Assembly (NCBI GenBank): GCA_947168315.1
Contig: CAMVLL010000006.1
Location: 1-56,022, forward strand
Direction of reading: 5' to 3'
DNA: 56,022 bases
From: an uncultured Bacteroidota bacterium
GTDB taxonomy: Bacteria > Bacteroidota > Bacteroidia > Bacteroidales > Bacteroidaceae
The position numbers and the translations under genes were made by a program. This document shows positions 1 to 8,844 of this stretch, one piece after another. The stretch's first letter is position 1, and every line of letters starts with the position of its first letter. The notes beneath the pieces are model-generated. The model saw only the letters and a list, made by a program, of their open reading frames with translations, did no database searches and was not told the DNA's origin.

Positions 1-1
1 G

Positions 2-1507
2 GATTCAGAAAACTCAAAAAACGACACCGCAAAACAAAGAGACATCGAAGATCGTAACCGCAAAAAGACATTGATAGAGAATACTCAAACAGAGATAGAT
101 AATGATCAAGTTGAGTTAGATGCGGCAAAAGCTCGAAAAGAGGAACTGGATGCATATATTAGCAATTCTAGTAAACGTAATGAGATTCGCGCAAAGTTAG
201 AAAGAAACAAAATTGAAATAGACAATGTAAAGACGACTATCGAAAGAATTGAGAGTTCAATAACAAAGAAAATTTTCGACGAAGAAACCCCTTGGCTTTT
301 AATGGGCTTAGCCGACGAGTTAGACGCTTTTGACGCAAAAAGGGAAAAGCATATTGGCGATGTGGCACAAATGAATAATGACGGGGCATTGGTTATAATG
401 CTGCCGGAAGGGTCTCCAGATACATCTTCTCTTGAAAGAATGTTGAAAAATGAAATTTGTGAAGTGTGCGGTCAACCTGCAGCTAGACATTCTGAAGCAT
501 GGGAACATATCAAAATGATTCTTGATCGCCCAAAGAAGGTTAGTACGACTCGTAATGATTTTGGACAGTTTTATGGCTTTTTACAGAAATCTGCAAGTTC
601 GTATTCAAGAGCCATTCCCAAAACCGACGATAGAATCGAGTCGACCAGAAATCAACTCGATGAAATAAAGGAACATTTGGAAGAGCTTGAAGCAAAACGT
701 GAAGAAATTCTTGTTGAGCTTAACAATGCAGGAGGAAATGAGGATAATTCTGAGAAAAACGACAAGATAATCACATCTGATTACGGGGTTGTTATTGAAA
801 CCATTTCTTCCAAGGAAAGAGCAATTTCAAATAAGGAGAAAGATATAATAATATGGGAAAAATCCCTTGACCAAATAAACAAGCGTTTAAATTCATACAA
901 AAAGAACACGGCGACTCAAAAATACGAAGATTTCGCTGTACTTATGAGAGAAATAAATGATATTATTAACCAGACAAAGGATGAGATTTTCGACAGAACC
1001 ATTTCAGCGTTAGCGAAAGAAGCCAACGAAAAATATGTGGCACTAACTTCCGGAAATCAATCCTCGGGTGGTATTCTGAAGTTTGAAAGGAATCATGACA
1101 TCGTAAATGTGTCAATTAGAGATGTACAAAACGGTGTTATTACTGGATTGGGAACGGGATTCCAGCGCATGAAACAATTGGCAATAGTGATGGCTGTCAT
1201 ATCATCAAAAATAGGAGATGAGAAAAAATTTGATTATCCATTTATCTCAGATGCTCCATTCTCTGAGTTCGGTGAGAACTTTATCAGCAATTTCTTCAAA
1301 GTAGCTCCAAGTGTTTTTAGCCAAAGTATCATTATGATTAAAGAATTATATGATCCGAAAGCTAAAGATTTCCTGACGCCATTTGGTCGTAGAATTCTTG
1401 AAGATATGAAATCAGGTAAAATACCTGGTACATTCTATGTCAATGTAATTAAAGACAAAACGGATACAACGGGACTCGTAACTTCACATAATTGTTATAA
1501 AGATTAG
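2..1507 (+). CDS. SMC/Rad50-like coiled-coil ATPase (5' end outside window)
   Basis: The reading frame is open from the first complete codon at base 2, so this is the C-terminal part of a longer protein; the N-terminal ATPase half with the Walker A is off the left edge. What is visible is a long charged coiled coil, a zinc-hook-like CEVC motif (cysteine codons at 458 and 467) in mid-coil, a second coiled arm, and then the C-terminal ATPase lobe. That lobe has a signature-like segment GLGTGFQRMKQLA (about 1147-1185) and a Walker B/D-loop-like FISDAPFSEF (Asp codon at 1250). This is the layout of Rad50/SMC/DndD-type ATPases, which sense or process DNA. The next gene starts 3 bp after the stop, so the two are probably co-translated. 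The context with a protease-STAND protein and an MBL-fold protein suggests anti-phage defence. The family is clear; the biological role is inferred. Confidence 0.82.
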   Translation, partial: DSENSKNDTAKQRDIEDRNRKKTLIENTQTEIDNDQVELDAAKARKEELDAYISNSSKRNEIRAKLERNKIEIDNVKTTIERIESSITKKIFDEETPWLLMGLADELDAFDAKREKHIGDVAQMNNDGALVIMLPEGSPDTSSLERMLKNEICEVCGQPAARHSEAWEHIKMILDRPKKVSTTRNDFGQFYGFLQKSASSYSRAIPKTDDRIESTRNQLDEIKEHLEELEAKREEILVELNNAGGNEDNSEKNDKIITSDYGVVIETISSKERAISNKEKDIIIWEKSLDQINKRLNSYKKNTATQKYEDFAVLMREINDIINQTKDEIFDRTISALAKEANEKYVALTSGNQSSGGILKFERNHDIVNVSIRDVQNGVITGLGTGFQRMKQLAIVMAVISSKIGDEKKFDYPFISDAPFSEFGENFISNFFKVAPSVFSQSIIMIKELYDPKAKDFLTPFGRRILEDMKSGKIPGTFYVNVIKDKTDTTGLVTSHNCYKD

Positions 1508-1510
1508 ACT

Positions 1511-2044
1511 ATGAACCATCAAGATTTAAGAGATGCGATCTTTATTCGCAAGCCCAAATATAACATCAAGTTTAAACCATTGATGGAGAGAATTTCCATC
1601 AAGGGCGATGCGTCTGGCAAAGGTGATTTTTCCACTTTTGGTGCTTTCTATCAGACATTCATGTATGCTTTTATTATTGGACTCCGCCTTGGAGAGAAAA
1701 CACCGTTAGCGGCAGGTGAAGGCGTTGAGTTTGCTCCAATATCTAATTGGAAGCCCGCTCCTTTAAGAGATTTTATTATTATCACTCTACTCAATAGAAG
1801 CGAAAAATTTGATGGTTATCAATGGGACTGGCTTTCGCTCGAAAACGGCTCAGAAGAGCACGTCGGGAACTTTGTGACTATGCTCATAAGAGAAATGGAA
1901 GCCTATGCAAACAGAGGCCTAATATATTTGCAGGACAAATGGGACAACGAAAAAATACTTTTCACATCTCCTTTCGTGTTTGTGGATATACTTCAAGATC
2001 TTCCTTATAACAATAAAAATCTATTAACGGTGCCAGGTCAATAA
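1511..2044 (+). CDS. 177-residue partner protein of unknown family, defence cassette
   Basis: I do not recognise this family. The protein is soluble, with no signal peptide or membrane segment. It has a basic N-terminus, a hydrophobic helix near residues 45-60 (FYQTFMYAFIIGLRLG), a central DFIIITLLNRSEKFDG segment and an aromatic-rich C-terminal half. Its ATG lies 3 bp after the stop of the SMC-like ATPase gene, which implies translational coupling and probably a physical partnership. A small protein encoded directly after an SMC-like ATPase recalls the middle component of ABC-three-component (ABC-3C) conflict systems; that comparison rests on position and size, not on a recognised motif. A 133-bp gap separates it from the next gene. 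Confidence 0.7.
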   Translation: MNHQDLRDAIFIRKPKYNIKFKPLMERISIKGDASGKGDFSTFGAFYQTFMYAFIIGLRLGEKTPLAAGEGVEFAPISNWKPAPLRDFIIITLLNRSEKFDGYQWDWLSLENGSEEHVGNFVTMLIREMEAYANRGLIYLQDKWDNEKILFTSPFVFVDILQDLPYNNKNLLTVPGQ

Positions 2045-2177
2045 TGATTCATAATTAATAGATTTGTGAAGACTTAAAACGATTTAGAGAAACGATAGGA
2101 GCCCAACCTATAGAGAAATCTATTTGTGAATTTCAAGAGATTATATGGAAGAACAAATCTGCAAATAATTAAAGCGT

Positions 2178-5100
2178 ATGACGGAAAAATGTCTTGACAT
2201 TATAACTCAGATAACGGTTGAATTACATACAGATGCCCCTTTTAAACAGAAATTAGGGACAGGTATCCTTTATTTCAACAAGCTTTTATCCGGATTAGTA
2301 TATGTTCTAACTGCCAAGCATTGTCTTGCTGAGTTGAATGAAAAAGACAGGGTATCTTTACGTGTTTACAATCCTAACAGCAACACCTACGAATACGTTA
2401 TTCCCGTTAATCAAACTATTCTGTATCATCCGGTTGATGATGCAGGAATTATTATCTTCAACCAGCGGGAACTTGCTGGAATTAATCCGAAACTCCCATC
2501 TGTATTTGTTGTTGATAAGAATGTGGGGGAAAATGAGGCTGTTACCAAAGGTTTTCCTCAGGCAAGTCTTGATCAGACTAGTGAAGCTGGAGAGTCTTCT
2601 TTAGTAGCACTTAAAATGACGTACCGTCAGGAGTTACCATCTGAACGTGCGTTCCAATTAACTACAATCGATGACTATAACGAGAATACAATTCTTGGGA
2701 TGTCTGGTTCGGGTATTTTTATTGAAGCATGTGAAGAATTGTATATTAATGGAATATTCACTCGATTCTCGGATGAGGAAAGAGGCAAAGTGATATACGC
2801 CCAAAGATTGACATCATATAATGAGTTATTGGGAAGTGAATATAAGAAGCTGATGCCATTGACTTACCTAGGACACCATGACTTAGGACATAAGACATTC
2901 GAAAACAATGTAAAGGATTCTGTAGCCAATTTAGGAGCAAGATATTGCAGGAGAGTTAATGTGAGAACAGGAACTGCTAGATATTTTGATTGTGTAGCAA
3001 AGTCTCCCGTATATTATAATCGTTTGAATCAGTCAATAGATGCATGGCTAACAGAAAAAAGTTATAGAATCAGATCGGACTCAAGGAGAATAGGCACTCT
3101 CGAATCAAATCTAAAATCAATAAGAGCTGATTTCGTCGTTGCTCTGACAGAATTGGACATGAACGTGTGTGGAACCATTGATTTCTCATACTTGATGAAA
3201 CGAGTAGATGACCTACAGGTGGAAATAGAGCAAGTTCGTTACGATTTGTACTCTGATTATTCGTCATTGCGAGAGGCAGAGGATAAATTGAAAAATGAGA
3301 TAGAGGCAGACGAGTCAAGACTATCAGAGATATCACGTGATTTGTACACTTTTATCGAGGACTATAAAGACTTAAAGATTGGGTTGGCGAATAAACCATA
3401 TCTTATCATTAAAGGAGAAGCTGGATGTGGAAAGTCTCATTTGATGGGTGATATGGCCAGCAAAAGAATTGCTGATGGATTGCCAACGCTATTGTTTCTT
3501 GGCTCCGATTTTTCCGAGGGTACGTATGAAAGTGCCATAACATCTAAAATTGGTTTTGCAGGTACATTCCCGGAATTCCTGTCCAGTTTTAATCAGATAG
3601 GATGTCAAGTTGGTTCTAGGGCATTATTAATGATTGACGCTCTGAATGAAGGTAAACAAGCCAACTTTTGGAAAGATAAACTATCTGGACTGATACATTC
3701 GCTAGAAGATTATCCAGCGATTGGTCTGGTAGTATCAGTGCGTGATACATACTTTGATGATGTTATTCCTGATGATGTGGAGTCAGGAAGTAATGCGACA
3801 ATCATTGAACATAAAGGATTTAAAGGCTTGGAGTATGAAGCTGTCAGGCAATTCTGTTTGGCTTATAAATTAAACTTACCCAATGTACCTATTCTTACTC
3901 CAGAATTTTGTAATCCTTTGTTTCTCAAGATTGTTTGTGATACATTAGAAGCATCTGGCGAAAAAGAATTCCCCAAAGGTTTTAACGGCGTAACCTCACT
4001 ATTCAACCGTTATTTCAGTATTCAAGACCAGCAGTTTGGCAAAAAAAGACCAGAATACAAGTATAGGGATGTAGTCAGCAGTTCCGTTAAATTGCTCGCC
4101 ATCCCGATTTTTGAAGCCAAATACAATCTTCTGAGGAAACAGGATGCTGATAGAATATTACAATCTTCTTTTCCGAGTTGTCCATCATTGTTGCCAGATC
4201 TAATAGATAACTATGTTCTGCTTAAAACAAAGTCACAAATCAGTGATGAGAATGAAGACTGTGTTGTTTTTTGCTATCAAAGGATTAGTGACTTTATTAT
4301 TGCACGAGAAATAGTCAAGAAATACCAGAATTGGGAGTCTTTTGTAAGAAACATTAATGATGACGACACCCTTCGCTCGATTATTATCGATACTGATTGG
4401 CAATATAAGGGTATATTAGAAGCGTTTGCGATCTTATTACCAGAAGTATTTGGTCACGAGCTAATAGACCTAATCCGTTTCATTCCTTCAAAAGAACTAA
4501 AAAGGGGTTATTATTCTTGCCTTGATTTTATTTCGGAAGCACTGATAAACAGCTTGAATTGGCGCTCTATTGAATCCATCAACAAACAAGCAATAAGGAA
4601 ATTCCTCAACTCTCAAATGTGTAGGGTCGATTCAGATGTTTGGTATTATAAGTTGGCAGAACTCTCTGCTATTCCAAATCATCCATTCAATGCAGATTAT
4701 TTTCACGCATTAATGATGCGTGGCTCGATGCCTGAACGTGACGGAACTTTTCAGTTCTTCTTCAATGGCTGTGCTGGATATGATGATGAGAAATGTGCTA
4801 ACCCTATACGTCGGTTGATTGACTGGGCATGGTCTGAAGGTGTATCTGTAAATTCAGATCCGGAGTCTACGCGATTGGCCGCTATTATGCTATGTTGGCT
4901 TCTGTCGTCAACATACATCAAGCATCGAGACGAAGCGACAAAGGCACTTGTTAATCTTCTTTCAGAGAAGGTGGATGTGCTCATTAATACCATGCGTACC
5001 TTCGAGAATGTGGATGACATGTATGTTTATGAAAGACTATTTGCTGTAGCATATGGAGTTGCATTGAGAACCTCCTCGGGTGATGACCTCAAAAAATTGG

Positions 5101-6875
5101 GTAGGTATGTTTATGATACAATTTTTAAGCACAATAATCCACCTAAAGATATTTTACTGAGAGACCATGCTAGAAATATTATTGAATATGCCTGTTACAA
5201 AGAGGGGATGGCTTCTGTTAATATGAGAAAAGTCCGCCCTCCATATTCAAGCACTCTTCCAAAATGGCCAATGGATGACGAGGTTGAGTTCCTTCATATA
5301 AGCTATGATGCTCCAGACTACAAAGAAAGACAAGGCCCGGAACAGAACTTGATTTGGGAATCGGTCAAAGGAGGGTTGGCTGATTTTTGGAATAAATTGG
5401 TTTCTTCAGACATTGAGCGCTTTTATCCGATATCAATTGCCGAGGAAAAAGAATTTGATAAAGCATTGCGTTTGTTTAAGGGAAATATGAAGGAGCTGGC
5501 AAAGTATATATGTGAGGGGAAAGCTGTCTTAATAATAAAAGGACAAAAAAGGGCAAAGAATGCTAGCGCAAACGATCAGTTATTTGAGCTTATTTGTAAT
5601 GAGACAGAAAAGTTAATGTCAGAAGAACAAATAAAAGCGTTATACGAAGTCTTGATTCCTTTTAAAGTTAAGGAATTGCCATTACAGAAACATTATTATT
5701 GCAGATTCCCAACAGGTGGGGTAAGAAACTGGTTGGTCAAGAGGGCATACGATCTGGGGGTTGATGTAGAACTCCATGGAAGATATGATCGTTTTGCAAA
5801 AAACTGGACATTCAGAAATTCGGATGATAGGATAGACCGCATAGGAAAGAAGTATCAGTGGATTGCTTTCCATGAGATAATGGGGATACTATCAGACAAC
5901 TACAAATTTAATAACGACTATGCTAACGAGGGTTCTGGAGGATATGAATTGTATCACGGAACATGGCAGTCTTTTTTGAGGAATATTAATCCTTCAATGA
6001 TATCAAGAGAAATGGTCGTTAACTCTGAATTGTCAGATAATAGTATTGAAGCTGAAGACCAGGAATGGTATCGAGATGAGAAATATGATAATTGGGAATA
6101 TCCCGTTTCTGATGAAGCGTGGACATCATTGCTCAGAGACTTACCTGATCCTGTTTCTATGATTCAGAAAGTGGACGATTGCGGAATGGAATGGCTTAGC
6201 CTGAATAACTCTAAGAGTTGGGATGAGCCAAAAGACATTGGCAAGGAAAAATACCACTACAAAGTCAAAAGACACAGTGTAGCCATCTATATTGATGCAA
6301 TTCTGGTAAAACTGCAAGATGTTGAAGAGGCTATTCGGTCTCTTGATAATAGAAGTTTATGGGGAGGAAATGAATTCCCGTCCGATGATTGGCAATATCT
6401 GATAAATAGAGAAAAATATTGGTCACCAGCCTATAAGGATGTATATAGAAGCAAGGATGATTGGGCTGACACTATAAAGGGACTTAATGTTCCATTCATT
6501 TATACCAGTGAAAAGGCATGCGGGAATATTGAAGGAGACAAATCTGGTACAATAAGATGTTATAGCATTCCATGTCGGAGATTATTTGAAGGCTTGGAAA
6601 TGGAATACGATGCACATGATGGCCGATACATTGATAAAAATGGAAATCTCGTAGCGATAACTTATGGATATGACCAGATTCTTGTAAAAAAAGAACCACT
6701 TCTGCGATTTCTTGAACAGAGTGGTTTGGCCATATTATGGCTTGTGAGAGGAGAAAAGATGGTTTTTATTAGTGGCGGTATAGGGTGTCTAAGTGAATAT
6801 AATCCATGTGGCATATATTATTTGGATAGCGATATGAATCCTAAAGGTGTCTTAAAGACATATAAGAGAGTGTGA
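2178..6875 (+). CDS. Trypsin-like protease / STAND (NACHT-type) ATPase fusion, Avs-like
   Basis: A 1,565-residue multidomain protein. Residues about 10-200 form a trypsin-like (S1-fold) protease domain with a recognisable triad: His48 in TAKHC, Asp87 or Asp88 in PVDDAGIIIF, and Ser176 in GMSGSG. Residues about 290-395 are a charged coiled coil. A STAND/NACHT-type P-loop ATPase follows, with Walker A GEAGCGKS (413-420), Walker B LLMIDALNE (Asp487), a sensor-like SVRDTY and a winged-helix-side NPLFLKIVC. The remaining roughly 900 residues are helical and variable, like the target-sensing C-terminal region of Avs proteins. In STAND defence proteins, binding of a phage protein drives oligomerisation and activates the N-terminal effector, here presumably proteolysis. 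There is no signal peptide, so it is cytoplasmic. The MBL-fold gene begins 1 bp after its stop. Domain calls are firm; the ligand and protease substrate are unknown. Confidence 0.88.
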   Translation: MTEKCLDIITQITVELHTDAPFKQKLGTGILYFNKLLSGLVYVLTAKHCLAELNEKDRVSLRVYNPNSNTYEYVIPVNQTILYHPVDDAGIIIFNQRELAGINPKLPSVFVVDKNVGENEAVTKGFPQASLDQTSEAGESSLVALKMTYRQELPSERAFQLTTIDDYNENTILGMSGSGIFIEACEELYINGIFTRFSDEERGKVIYAQRLTSYNELLGSEYKKLMPLTYLGHHDLGHKTFENNVKDSVANLGARYCRRVNVRTGTARYFDCVAKSPVYYNRLNQSIDAWLTEKSYRIRSDSRRIGTLESNLKSIRADFVVALTELDMNVCGTIDFSYLMKRVDDLQVEIEQVRYDLYSDYSSLREAEDKLKNEIEADESRLSEISRDLYTFIEDYKDLKIGLANKPYLIIKGEAGCGKSHLMGDMASKRIADGLPTLLFLGSDFSEGTYESAITSKIGFAGTFPEFLSSFNQIGCQVGSRALLMIDALNEGKQANFWKDKLSGLIHSLEDYPAIGLVVSVRDTYFDDVIPDDVESGSNATIIEHKGFKGLEYEAVRQFCLAYKLNLPNVPILTPEFCNPLFLKIVCDTLEASGEKEFPKGFNGVTSLFNRYFSIQDQQFGKKRPEYKYRDVVSSSVKLLAIPIFEAKYNLLRKQDADRILQSSFPSCPSLLPDLIDNYVLLKTKSQISDENEDCVVFCYQRISDFIIAREIVKKYQNWESFVRNINDDDTLRSIIIDTDWQYKGILEAFAILLPEVFGHELIDLIRFIPSKELKRGYYSCLDFISEALINSLNWRSIESINKQAIRKFLNSQMCRVDSDVWYYKLAELSAIPNHPFNADYFHALMMRGSMPERDGTFQFFFNGCAGYDDEKCANPIRRLIDWAWSEGVSVNSDPESTRLAAIMLCWLLSSTYIKHRDEATKALVNLLSEKVDVLINTMRTFENVDDMYVYERLFAVAYGVALRTSSGDDLKKLGRYVYDTIFKHNNPPKDILLRDHARNIIEYACYKEGMASVNMRKVRPPYSSTLPKWPMDDEVEFLHISYDAPDYKERQGPEQNLIWESVKGGLADFWNKLVSSDIERFYPISIAEEKEFDKALRLFKGNMKELAKYICEGKAVLIIKGQKRAKNASANDQLFELICNETEKLMSEEQIKALYEVLIPFKVKELPLQKHYYCRFPTGGVRNWLVKRAYDLGVDVELHGRYDRFAKNWTFRNSDDRIDRIGKKYQWIAFHEIMGILSDNYKFNNDYANEGSGGYELYHGTWQSFLRNINPSMISREMVVNSELSDNSIEAEDQEWYRDEKYDNWEYPVSDEAWTSLLRDLPDPVSMIQKVDDCGMEWLSLNNSKSWDEPKDIGKEKYHYKVKRHSVAIYIDAILVKLQDVEEAIRSLDNRSLWGGNEFPSDDWQYLINREKYWSPAYKDVYRSKDDWADTIKGLNVPFIYTSEKACGNIEGDKSGTIRCYSIPCRRLFEGLEMEYDAHDGRYIDKNGNLVAITYGYDQILVKKEPLLRFLEQSGLAILWLVRGEKMVFISGGIGCLSEYNPCGIYYLDSDMNPKGVLKTYKRV

Positions 6876-6876
6876 A

Positions 6877-7935
6877 ATGAGACTGATTTGTTACAGGGCT
6901 ATGTGTGGAGATGCATTCCACCTTCAATTTGAGGGTGAAAGCGGCAAGAATCGTAATCTCTTTCTTGATATGGGGCATCCAAAGACTTATTCACAGATTT
7001 TAAAGAACGTTGTCTCAAAACTTGTTGGAGCCTCGGAACAGATAGATGCTCTGTTTTTGTCTCATATACATGATGACCACATTGGTGGTGCTAGCAGATT
7101 CATAAAGGATATTCAGATGGATTGCACTCTTGAAAATGTTGTTGGCCGTTGGATATACAATGCCCCAAGAAAATATAGCGTAGAAAAAAAACGAAATGAT
7201 CAGAATGGCGTATTATGCGGGATTATGTCAGGAGATAAGGTCTATGAACATATTCTTGCAAATCGCCCGTCTGATTTAAACGATGTTACGGAAGGACTAT
7301 TCTTTGATATTGATGGGATGAAAGTTACAATTCTTTCACCTGATGTGAACACTCTGAATCGGTTGAGAGACAAGTATTCGAATAAACGTCCACTCTGCAA
7401 GTTGGAAACAGATGAAACAAGTATAGAAGCAGGTGGAGTGACAGATGACTATTCGATACCGCTGTCTCAGTTTAAAACTGACAAATTTCAAGAAGACACT
7501 AACATTGAGAATGCAAGCAGTATAGCTGCTATATTTGAATATAGAGGAATAAGAATTTTGTGGCTATCAGATTCGATACCCTCTGTTGTCGTTGGTTCAC
7601 TATCAAAACTTGGATATAGTGAAACAAAAAAGATGCAGTGCGAAGCGGCTTTGCTTTCTCATCATGGGAGTTCAGCTAACAACAGCTTAGATTTGTTTAA
7701 GATGATATCTGCTAACAAATATATCATTAGCGCGGATGGTATTAATCGCCATTGTCTACCAAACAAAGAAACTGTAGCAAGAATTGTTTCTGCCTCTTCG
7801 AAACTGCCTGTAACGCTGTATTTTAATTATGATGATGGACGATTGACGAGAATGTTTAAATCAGATAATTTGGAGTATATGAGATTGATGACTGATGTTC
7901 ATTATCTGAAGGATAGTGAGGCTATCATTTTTTGA
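6877..7935 (+). CDS. ComEC/Rec2-like metallo-beta-lactamase-fold hydrolase
   Basis: A 352-residue MBL-fold protein. The metal-binding motif SHIHDDHIGG is near residue 63, LWLSDS supplies a later Asp ligand, and LLSHHGSSANNS is the typical second His motif of ComEC/Rec2-type MBL domains. No membrane segments or signal peptide are present, so this is a stand-alone soluble hydrolase (probably nuclease or phosphodiesterase) rather than a competence channel. Its ATG follows the stop of the STAND gene by 1 bp, so the two are very likely translated together. MBL-fold proteins paired with protease-STAND proteins and SMC-like ATPases are the reported make-up of type I AVAST systems. The substrate cannot be read from the sequence. 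Confidence 0.85.
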   Translation: MRLICYRAMCGDAFHLQFEGESGKNRNLFLDMGHPKTYSQILKNVVSKLVGASEQIDALFLSHIHDDHIGGASRFIKDIQMDCTLENVVGRWIYNAPRKYSVEKKRNDQNGVLCGIMSGDKVYEHILANRPSDLNDVTEGLFFDIDGMKVTILSPDVNTLNRLRDKYSNKRPLCKLETDETSIEAGGVTDDYSIPLSQFKTDKFQEDTNIENASSIAAIFEYRGIRILWLSDSIPSVVVGSLSKLGYSETKKMQCEAALLSHHGSSANNSLDLFKMISANKYIISADGINRHCLPNKETVARIVSASSKLPVTLYFNYDDGRLTRMFKSDNLEYMRLMTDVHYLKDSEAIIF

Positions 7936-8226
7936 AGGCTATTTGATAGCATTAAGCTTGCTTATAGAAAGCGATACGTTATAGTATTCCCATTTTGCCG
8001 TATCACTTCAGGAGTCAAGAATTATAGGGGGCTTACTAATCCCCTTTGAAAAAGTGAAGATAAATAATATTCAAATCATCTCCGATGAAGTTTTTATATC
8101 CTTTGAAGAAATAGTGTTATTCTTGGCGGGGGCAGATGGGGGACAAATTGATGGAAAAACGGCTAAATATCAATAATCTGCATATATGGGTGCAATTTTT
8201 AGCGCTTAAAATAAAGCAATTTATGT
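7936..8226. other. Intergenic stretch after the defence cassette
   Basis: No convincing gene. A weak GC hairpin (AGGGG 8026-8030 with CCCCT 8041-8045) could end the cassette transcript but lacks a clear T-run. A 40-codon frame starting at GTG 8054 and ending at 8176 is open, but it has no recognisable homology and no clear ribosome binding site. Confidence 0.4.
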
Positions 8227-8234
8227 TATATTTG
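8227..8234 (+). promoter_or_regulatory. Bacteroidetes -7 box TATATTTG upstream of the winged-helix remnant
   Basis: TATATTTG followed by C matches TAnnTTTG. It would start a transcript about 30 nt before the ATG at 8275. No clear -33 TTTG is present at 19-21 bp, so the promoter may be weak or decayed. Confidence 0.45.
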
Positions 8235-8274
8235 CAGATAGTATGCTTTTCTTTGCAAAAAATCACTCGTCCAA

Positions 8275-8546
8275 ATGACAAATGTCGGTAGTTTGTCGGT
8301 ACTTCAACTCACTGAAAGGCAGAAGAATATATTCAATCGGCTGATAGAGACAGGACAAATGAATGTCCTAGATAATGTCCTAGAAAATGTCCTAGAAAAT
8401 GTCCTAGAAACATCAGCTTCGCTTGCAAAGTATTTCAAAGTTGACGCAAGGACTATCCGTCGCGACCTAAGCGTTCTGCAAACCAAAGGCCATATCCGTC
8501 ACGATGGGCCAGACAAGGTGGACGCTGGATTATTATAAAAGGATAA
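8275..8546 (+). pseudogene. Winged-helix remnant of an AlbA_2/RecG-like ATP-binding protein, frameshifted near its end
   Basis: As read, the frame gives 87 residues ending at 8538. The body (LTERQKNIFNRL, then FKVDARTIRRDLSVLQTKGHI) is the DeoR-like winged helix found at the C-terminus of AlbA_2/divergent-AAA ATP-binding proteins. That family typically ends GPDKGGxW. Here the frame reads GPDKVDAGLL and stops. Restoring one base after 8517 gives GPDKGGRWIIIKG with a stop at 8544-8546, so a one-base deletion is the simplest explanation. The ATP-binding N-terminal domain is absent, and a NVLD/NVLE tandem repeat sits at residues 30-45. It is probably a decayed fragment in accessory DNA, although a short stand-alone DNA-binding protein cannot be excluded. 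Confidence 0.65.
8362..8409 (+). repeat. Four tandem copies of a 12-bp unit, AATGTCCTAGAA
   Basis: Four head-to-tail copies; the first differs in its last base. They encode NVLD-NVLE-NVLE-NVLE in frame with the winged-helix remnant. Because 12 is a multiple of three, copy-number change by slippage would alter linker length without changing frame. Confidence 0.9.
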
Positions 8547-8611
8547 TTGAGAGTTTCATCAGAAAGCTTACTCGTATTACTGATATTACCGAATAATATG
8601 CCGAAAAATGG

Positions 8612-8723
8612 TTTGCGAACAAAAATAATGAGATTTGCGAACAAAATGAGTGAATCAATTATTGCAGAAAGATTATATTGGTGTTCGCGAAATGCAATTT
8701 TGTTCGCAAATTGTTCGCAAAAC
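8612..8723. repeat. Cluster of direct and inverted TTTGCGAACA repeats
   Basis: Two forward copies (8612-8624 and 8633-8647) face two reverse copies (8697-8711 and about 8710-8723). The 15-bp copies at 8633-8647 and 8697-8711 are exact reverse complements separated by 49 bp. A further partial TGTTCGCGAA lies at 8682. No convincing gene overlaps. It could be protein-binding DNA, a recombination end or a remnant of a repeat-rich gene. Confidence 0.75.
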
Positions 8724-8759
8724 AAAGAAAAAGGAGCTACATTTTTGATGTAACTCCTT
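8722..8759 (-). terminator. Rho-independent terminator of the tRNA-Met gene
   Basis: On the minus strand, AAGGAGTTACAT (8748-8759) and ATGTAGCTCCTT (8731-8742) form a 12-bp stem with one mismatch, followed by a T-rich run (8722-8730). It lies 11 bp downstream of the tRNA. Confidence 0.75.
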
Positions 8760-8770
8760 GATTTCCAATG

Positions 8771-8844
8771 TGGACCAGCCAGGGCTTGAACCTGGGACCT
8801 CCAGATTATGAGTCTGTTGCTCTAACCAACTGAGCTACAAGTCC
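8771..8844 (-). tRNA. tRNA-Met (anticodon CAT, elongator type)
   Basis: The minus strand gives a 74-nt cloverleaf: acceptor GGACTTG / CTGGTCC plus discriminator A, D-arm GCTCAGTTGGTTAGAGC, anticodon loop CTCATAA (CAT), and T-arm CCAGG-TTCAAGC-CCTGG. No CCA is encoded. G1-C72 is paired, so it is not the initiator. CAT could also be a lysidine-modified Ile tRNA, but the overall sequence looks like elongator Met. Two non-pairs are seen: T6-T67 in the acceptor and A27-G43 in the anticodon stem. Its 3' end points toward the accessory DNA to the left. Confidence 0.95.

Follow-up and report, generated by a model that had tools for sequence, protein, structure and literature searches.

The window analysed here is a stretch of 56,022 nucleotides from an uncultured Bacteroidota bacterium, and four genes at its left end (positions 2-7935) are candidates for anti-phage function. 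We propose that they belong to two independent defence systems arranged head to tail. Genes 1 and 2 (system A) would be the 3' portion of an operon of the PbeABCD type, while genes 3 and 4 (system B) would form a complete two-gene AVAST system of the Avs2 type with a proposed protease-activated nuclease. We assign this reading a probability of roughly 0.8. The original prediction, made from the letters alone, had instead described a single four-gene cassette resembling type 1 AVAST. Its four co-oriented genes and their gaps of 3, 133 and 1 bp agree with the coordinates of the open reading frames (ORFs). Because position 1 of the window is the first base of contig G000:C6, the N-terminus of gene 1 is missing, and the contig does not contain the further 10 kb on the left that the original prediction asked to have scanned. 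The features are as follows (lengths in amino acids, aa).

2-1507, + strand: gene 1, 501 aa with an open 5' end; C-terminal part of a PbeC-like ABC ATPase with a CEVC hook (system A)
1511-2044, + strand: gene 2, 177 aa; partner in the PbeD (DndE-cognate) position (system A)
2045-2177, + strand: intersystem gap, 133 bp, with the motif TAnnTTTG at 2059-2066
2178-6875, + strand: gene 3, 1565 aa; trypsin-like protease fused to an Avs2-type STAND ATPase (system B)
6877-7935, + strand: gene 4, 352 aa; predicted pro-nuclease with a metallo-beta-lactamase (MBL) fold (system B)

Judged by its sequence, gene 3 is an Avs2-type (AVAST type 2) STAND sensor that carries an N-terminal trypsin-like protease. 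It matches the PADLOC Avs2 profile PDLC02163 with 1998 bits over residues 1-1564 and scores above the curated cutoff of the NCBIfam Avs2 model NF041813 (1088.3 bits vs 1000). The likeness to AVAST type 2 extends over the STAND and C-terminal parts, of which residues 246-1541 align with the solved Avs2 chain 9o4e (457.7 bits). Variation at the N-terminus is seen among relatives, three of which (L092, L093, L095) begin with a domain that looks like a nuclease when read by eye. The fusion of a protease to a STAND ATPase was foreseen correctly, and the residues named for it are in place. The protease spans residues ~1-235, with H48 within TAKHC and S176 within GMSGSG, and the STAND motifs include K419 (Walker A) and D487 (Walker B). 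A candidate for the third catalytic residue is D87 or D88. PADLOC profiles indicate kinship with the LmuA and RT_UG9 proteases, and Pfam Trypsin_2 reaches only E 0.2. The patterns used to search viral contigs recovered no homologue of gene 3 or gene 2.

The protein encoded by gene 4 is an MBL, as had been claimed, with HIHDDH at residue 63, SHHGS at residue 261 and a Lactamase_B match above the Pfam cutoff. It is related to the LmuA-MBL, RTasMBL and Avs1a profiles of PADLOC and NCBIfam. Relative to Escherichia coli YcaI, an alignment (of sequence only) places two insertions in gene 4, and both are in positions corresponding to those of the gated pro-nucleases described in PMC12799240. The first insertion contains Ile116, which is kept in 6/6 members of the clade and in 11/19 MBLs of the wider alignment. 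A candidate for the second site is Ile216, kept in 6/6 clade members and 17/19 MBLs. It follows Ile116 by 100 residues, the same spacing as in the published pairs of cleavage isoleucines, I118/I218 and I134/I234 (PMC12799240). Two distant relatives of this MBL occur in viral contigs (L115 and L116), and that of L116 adjoins a 435-aa ORF with a protease; a single phage record matches the gene 4 MBL at 23%.

The scan of genome contigs yielded L067, L068, L069 and L070, which are 70-86% identical to gene 3, and all of them have an MBL gene 1 bp downstream. L067 and L070 count as a single sequence, being 99.99% identical over 8 kb. A more distant relative, L091 (36% in the search listing), encodes a protease-STAND protein followed by a slightly overlapping MBL gene. 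The pair is conserved in 4/4 distinct full-length relatives at 36-86% identity (L067/L070, L068, L069, L091). At the start of another contig, L097 retains the last 263 aa of a STAND protein and a downstream MBL; it is included in the MBL trees and stands outside the table of 19 loci with a gene 3-like STAND protein. That table holds every STAND match fetched, among which L105, L106 and L151 are only distantly similar to gene 3. A protease N-terminus is accompanied by an adjacent MBL in 10/10 loci. The STAND proteins without protease have other N-termini, and none of their nine loci has an MBL (the 3' flanks of L094 and L105 are only 122 and 411 bp long, respectively). The window shows the arrangement of a gated nuclease-protease pair, with a trypsin-like protease N-terminal to a defence protein and an adjoining MBL gene. 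The MBL gene lies downstream in six of the ten protease-STAND loci (the window, L067, L068, L069, L070 and L091) and upstream in the other four, which have these coordinates and represent a second protease-Avs2 lineage.

L146, 6691-12142: MBL upstream of protease-Avs2
L147, 6607-12052: the same order
L149, 250-4376: the same order, with the protease-Avs2 protein broken into two ORFs
L150, 6676-12130: the same order

Like the window, these four loci combine an MBL, a trypsin-like protease and an Avs2-type STAND protein. Their STAND proteins match Avs2; for the protease parts, the matching models are Avs1b, HamA or RT-protease. They differ from the window in the upstream position of the MBL and in belonging to another STAND lineage. 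The STAND proteins of the window group form one clade (5 rows, support 100/100) that is separate from L146/L147/L150, and a tree that holds both protease groups together is rejected (approximately unbiased, AU, p 0.0021). When the three states (MBL downstream, upstream or none) are placed on the STAND tree, two changes are required. The MBLs of the window group are likewise one clade (6 rows, 100/99), and those of L146/L147/L149/L150 are another (100/99), whose nearest neighbours are the Avs1a-like MBLs of L104/L109 (85/76). Joining the two Avs2-linked MBL groups gives p 0.041. Neither the union of the window MBL group with the Avs1a-like pair (AU p 0.162) nor that of all three groups (p 0.114) is rejected. 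These p values are indicative, since the rows were already known when the groups were defined; L070, which duplicates L067, is not in the trees. From the trees, at least two distinct lineages of Avs2 sensors, opposite in gene order, appear to carry the protease/pro-nuclease pair. A single gain of the pair by Avs2 had been considered and was dropped after the four loci with upstream MBLs turned up.

Related arrangements were found elsewhere. L098 (8978-14570) has an MBL gene followed by a gene for a 1529-aa protein that combines a protease with an Avs4-type STAND (Avs4, 225 bits; LmuA protease, 81 bits). Genomes G053 and G159 gave protease-only matches, in proteins of 478-483 aa that adjoin MBLs. 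On a Runella plasmid (L111, 2742-12104) there are three MBL genes, and a gene for a 1363-aa serine protease directly follows the third. In L148 (467-1516), a viperin-like ORF (pVip, E 3.9e-14) overlaps the start of an Avs2-like gene. In L067 (107-1174, and the same in L070) a Fic/SoFic-like gene ends 58 bp before the protease-Avs2 gene, and a 1946-aa ORF comes directly after the protease-Avs2 locus of L150.

Terminase is a trigger of Avs2. By analogy with Hachiman and Avs1, the C-terminal part of the gene 3 protein may detect a phage protein, possibly the terminase, whereupon ATP-dependent oligomerisation would gather the N-terminal proteases. These proteases would then cut the gating loops of the gene 4 MBL pro-nuclease. 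The freed nuclease would degrade DNA, and the infected cell would die or stop growing. The analogues are set out in PMC12799240. In Hachiman, the purified protein HamM was shown there to be a pro-nuclease gated by two insertions. Its partner protease cuts it after two isoleucines, and HamM then degrades DNA. For AVAST type 1, the same paper reports that the isoleucines are important for defence, that infection is accompanied by cleavage and that terminase is the trigger.

Profile matches and gene neighbourhood indicate that genes 1 and 2 (2-2044) come from the 3' end of a phosphorothioate-linked operon of the PbeABCD type, which the contig start interrupts. The comparison is with the PbeABCD or CxC ABC-ATPase systems as presented in PMC6459918 and PMC10853773. 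The best PADLOC profile for gene 1 is PbeC (PDLC02730, E 9.4e-16), and LmuB is weaker (5.5e-11). Gene 1 is 35% identical to a 731-aa relative in L017, of which it matches residues 233-731, and by this alignment it is short by ~230 N-terminal residues, Walker A included. An SMC/Rad50-like ATPase with a CxxC hook had been predicted, and the hook is CEVC at residues 153-156, a CxxC pattern vs the published name CxC. A PbeC match and a Zn-hook are what a PbeC-type ABC ATPase should have, and the truncated gene 1 shows both.

Gene 2 has the 177 residues reported for it, and its AlphaFold model is too poor to use (mean predicted local distance difference test, pLDDT, 30.4). Homologues occur in 15/393 genomes of the order, counting the genome of the window itself. 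Ten of the 14 other loci were re-annotated, and all 14 were searched for PbeA and for gene 3 and gene 4 homologues. L023, L024 and L028-L030 lie outside alignment A2, L021 is also outside A3, and L018, L019, L024 and L026 have <2 kb or no sequence beyond gene 2. An ABC ATPase lies directly 5' of the gene 2 homologue in 12/14 loci, with a fragment only in L023 and L024. PbeA is found upstream in nine of the 14, and PADLOC concurs in L017, L025 and L019. An ORF of 71-91 aa separates PbeA from the ATPase in all eight annotated loci of those nine. In L018, PADLOC identifies the gene before the ATPase as something other than PbeA. L017 additionally carries DndC and a DndD/PbeC-type ATPase, and L027 carries SspC and SspD. 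The likeness to PbeABCD consists of the PbeC match, the PbeD position and the order PbeA, small protein, ATPase and partner in relatives, whereas the window has the 3' half only and the PbeD likeness is positional. The complete order of system A would presumably be a PbeA HKD-nuclease/helicase, a small PbeB, a CxC-type ABC ATPase and the protein in the PbeD position. No ABC ATPase homologue was found in the plasmid collection. The gene 2 homologues in L017 (7984-9051) and L018 (3802-4833) bear an additional C-terminal domain, which in L017 is Schlafen AlbA_2 (E 4.3e-19).

Several observations weigh against the assignment to these two systems. The case for both draws on sequence and on published analogues. 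By sequence gene 2 is hardly a PbeD, given that the PbeD profile matches 1/10 members of its family (E 0.012), and 5/14 gene 2 loci have no PbeA (L018, L023, L024, L029 and L030). A search of the rest of the window's own genome, which is 89% complete, for PbeA and DndC gave no more than weak helicase-level matches, two of them to the PbeA profile (E 7e-4 and 9e-4, at L107 and L108), so the absent half of system A has to be drawn from relatives. For gene 4, the column of the candidate first cleavage site holds Ala in the Avs1a protein of L109. Together with the retention of Ile in just 11 of the 19 MBLs, this suggests that the site is non-universal or that the alignment is loose there. Ile216 aligns just past the second insertion, outside it, which leaves the second cleavage isoleucine uncertain. 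Finally, AlphaFold gives gene 4 a poor model (pLDDT 42.6), which is insufficient to judge gating.

The four genes could instead be one hybrid system in which DNA sensing by the ABC ATPase pair is relayed to the protease-STAND protein, which then activates the MBL. They share a strand, short gaps and a similar guanine-cytosine (GC) content (0.37-0.39), and Lamassu operons do unite an MBL, an ABC-three-component effector, a middle component and an AAA ATPase (as annotated in L110 and L112). The gene order of the single cassette, however, is unconserved as far as tested, an outcome that the original prediction had itself named as a refutation. Genes 1 and 2 are absent from 4/4 distinct loci related to the gene 3-4 pair (tblastn, E 0.01) and from six further Avs2-like loci, and 0/14 gene 2 stretches contain a gene 3 or gene 4 homologue, with <2 kb beyond gene 2 in four of them. 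What stands upstream of the relatives of the pair is Fic (L067/L070), an AbiE pair with a weakly SIR2-like ORF (L068), AbiEii with a 205-aa ORF (L069) or ORFs unlike genes 1 and 2 (L091). In addition, the widest gap, that of 133 bp, falls exactly between the two pairs. The TAnnTTTG in this gap, which we take to be the Bacteroidetes -7 promoter motif, is weak evidence for a separate promoter, and a sigma-70 promoter scan of 1400-2400 was at chance (3 sites vs 3.2 in shuffles). We consider a single hybrid very improbable. We regard as extremely unlikely a cooperation of all four genes in which the protease-Avs2/pro-nuclease cascade receives a second, DNA-sensing input from the PbeC/PbeD-like pair, possibly without the helicase effector of that pair.

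Two further alternatives were weighed. The assignment to AVAST type 1 in the original prediction is attractive in that a protease-STAND protein is accompanied by an MBL and gene 4 matches Avs1a (NCBIfam, 163 bits; PADLOC, 4.4e-34). The Avs1a score is nevertheless below the curated cutoff of 420 bits. The PADLOC Avs1b profile PDLC02159 finds L109 (1118.6 bits) and L104 (803.7 bits) but not gene 3 (E 1), and the STAND part of gene 3 has no match to either locus at E 10. Among the five window proteins scanned there is no match to an Avs1c-named profile, where the presence of an Avs1c model is presumed from the RefSeq gene name in L109. The MBL gene is downstream rather than upstream, and its clade is apart from L104/L109, though joining them is not rejected, as noted above. 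The PADLOC matches are to Avs2 rather than Avs1b for gene 3 and to PbeC for gene 1. The accompanying statement that type 1 systems contain an SMC-like ATPase also fails for L109, an annotated type 1 locus made up of an avs1a MBL, a serine protease gene (Avs1b by PADLOC) and an 88-aa avs1c. Type 1 membership seems scarcely credible. Somewhat less remote, but still unlikely, is an Avs2-type pair whose MBL is not a DNase and instead degrades a nucleotide signal or RNA or plays an accessory part, with the protease acting on another target. The MBL fold is catalytically versatile, and the best solved match of the family profile is the putative hydrolase 4xuk (E 1.1e-6), with Apyc1 also matched (1.5e-4). 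The profile also matches ComEC (9vc6, 5.8e-6), the nearest named relatives are the MBLs of Lamassu, DRT and Avs1a, and the homologue HamM cuts DNA and not RNA according to PMC12799240.

Under the preferred reading of two abutting systems, system B shares with AVAST type 1 the logic of an MBL pro-nuclease and a protease-STAND protein, and it differs in using another STAND family, in lacking Avs1c and in having the nuclease gene downstream. The nuclease-protease forms of Hachiman, Lamassu and DRT have homologous MBL and protease modules but other core sensors, and PMC12799240 describes their nuclease gene as immediately upstream. With respect to Lamassu in particular, the window protease and MBL resemble LmuA-type modules; however, the protease is here part of an Avs2 fusion protein, and gene 1 is nearer to PbeC than to LmuB. 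Avs2 is unmentioned in the available main text of PMC12799240 (2025), whose supplement may list such loci. In the literature searched, no description was found of a protease/pro-nuclease AVAST built on Avs2, and the PADLOC Avs2 profile apparently includes protease-bearing members. The novelty is modest, and it would lie in the occurrence of the protease/pro-nuclease pair on Avs2 sensors, with the nuclease downstream in the window.

The genes to the left of the following feature appear to be part of an island.

8770-8844, - strand: tRNA-Met gene, at a shift in GC content

GC content per kb stays at 0.36-0.39 over the first 9 kb and reaches 0.40-0.49 between 9 and 20 kb. Eighteen of 20 P-type ATPase loci were scanned (17 from congeners and the window's own), and the tRNA-Met gene is kept beside the P-type ATPase gene in 15 of the 17 congener loci. 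A phage-type integrase gene is near the tRNA gene in 3/7 congener left flanks, with one gene scanned per flank. No DNA similarity to window positions 1-8769 was found in seven congener left flanks (L142, of 2.3 kb, was left out). The GC shift, the kept tRNA-Met gene, the differing left flanks and the integrases all agree with an exchangeable island, and the site is probably an island hotspot. Between gene 4 and the tRNA gene there is an 87-aa ORF (8275-8538, + strand) that contains NVLE repeats and a winged helix of the DeoR type (Pfam E 1.2e-5). From its similarity to AlbA_2 proteins we take it to be the C-terminal remnant of a larger regulator.

The presence of the protease/pro-nuclease pair on Avs2 in at least two lineages with opposite gene orders, and beside an Avs4-type protein in L098, suggests that the recurrent exchange of modules described between whole defence systems takes place within AVAST too. 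Abutting operons at a contig edge can mimic a hybrid system, which is a trap in the mining of defence islands. For the study of proteolytic nuclease activation, the window offers a compact setting of two genes in which the process may be tested.

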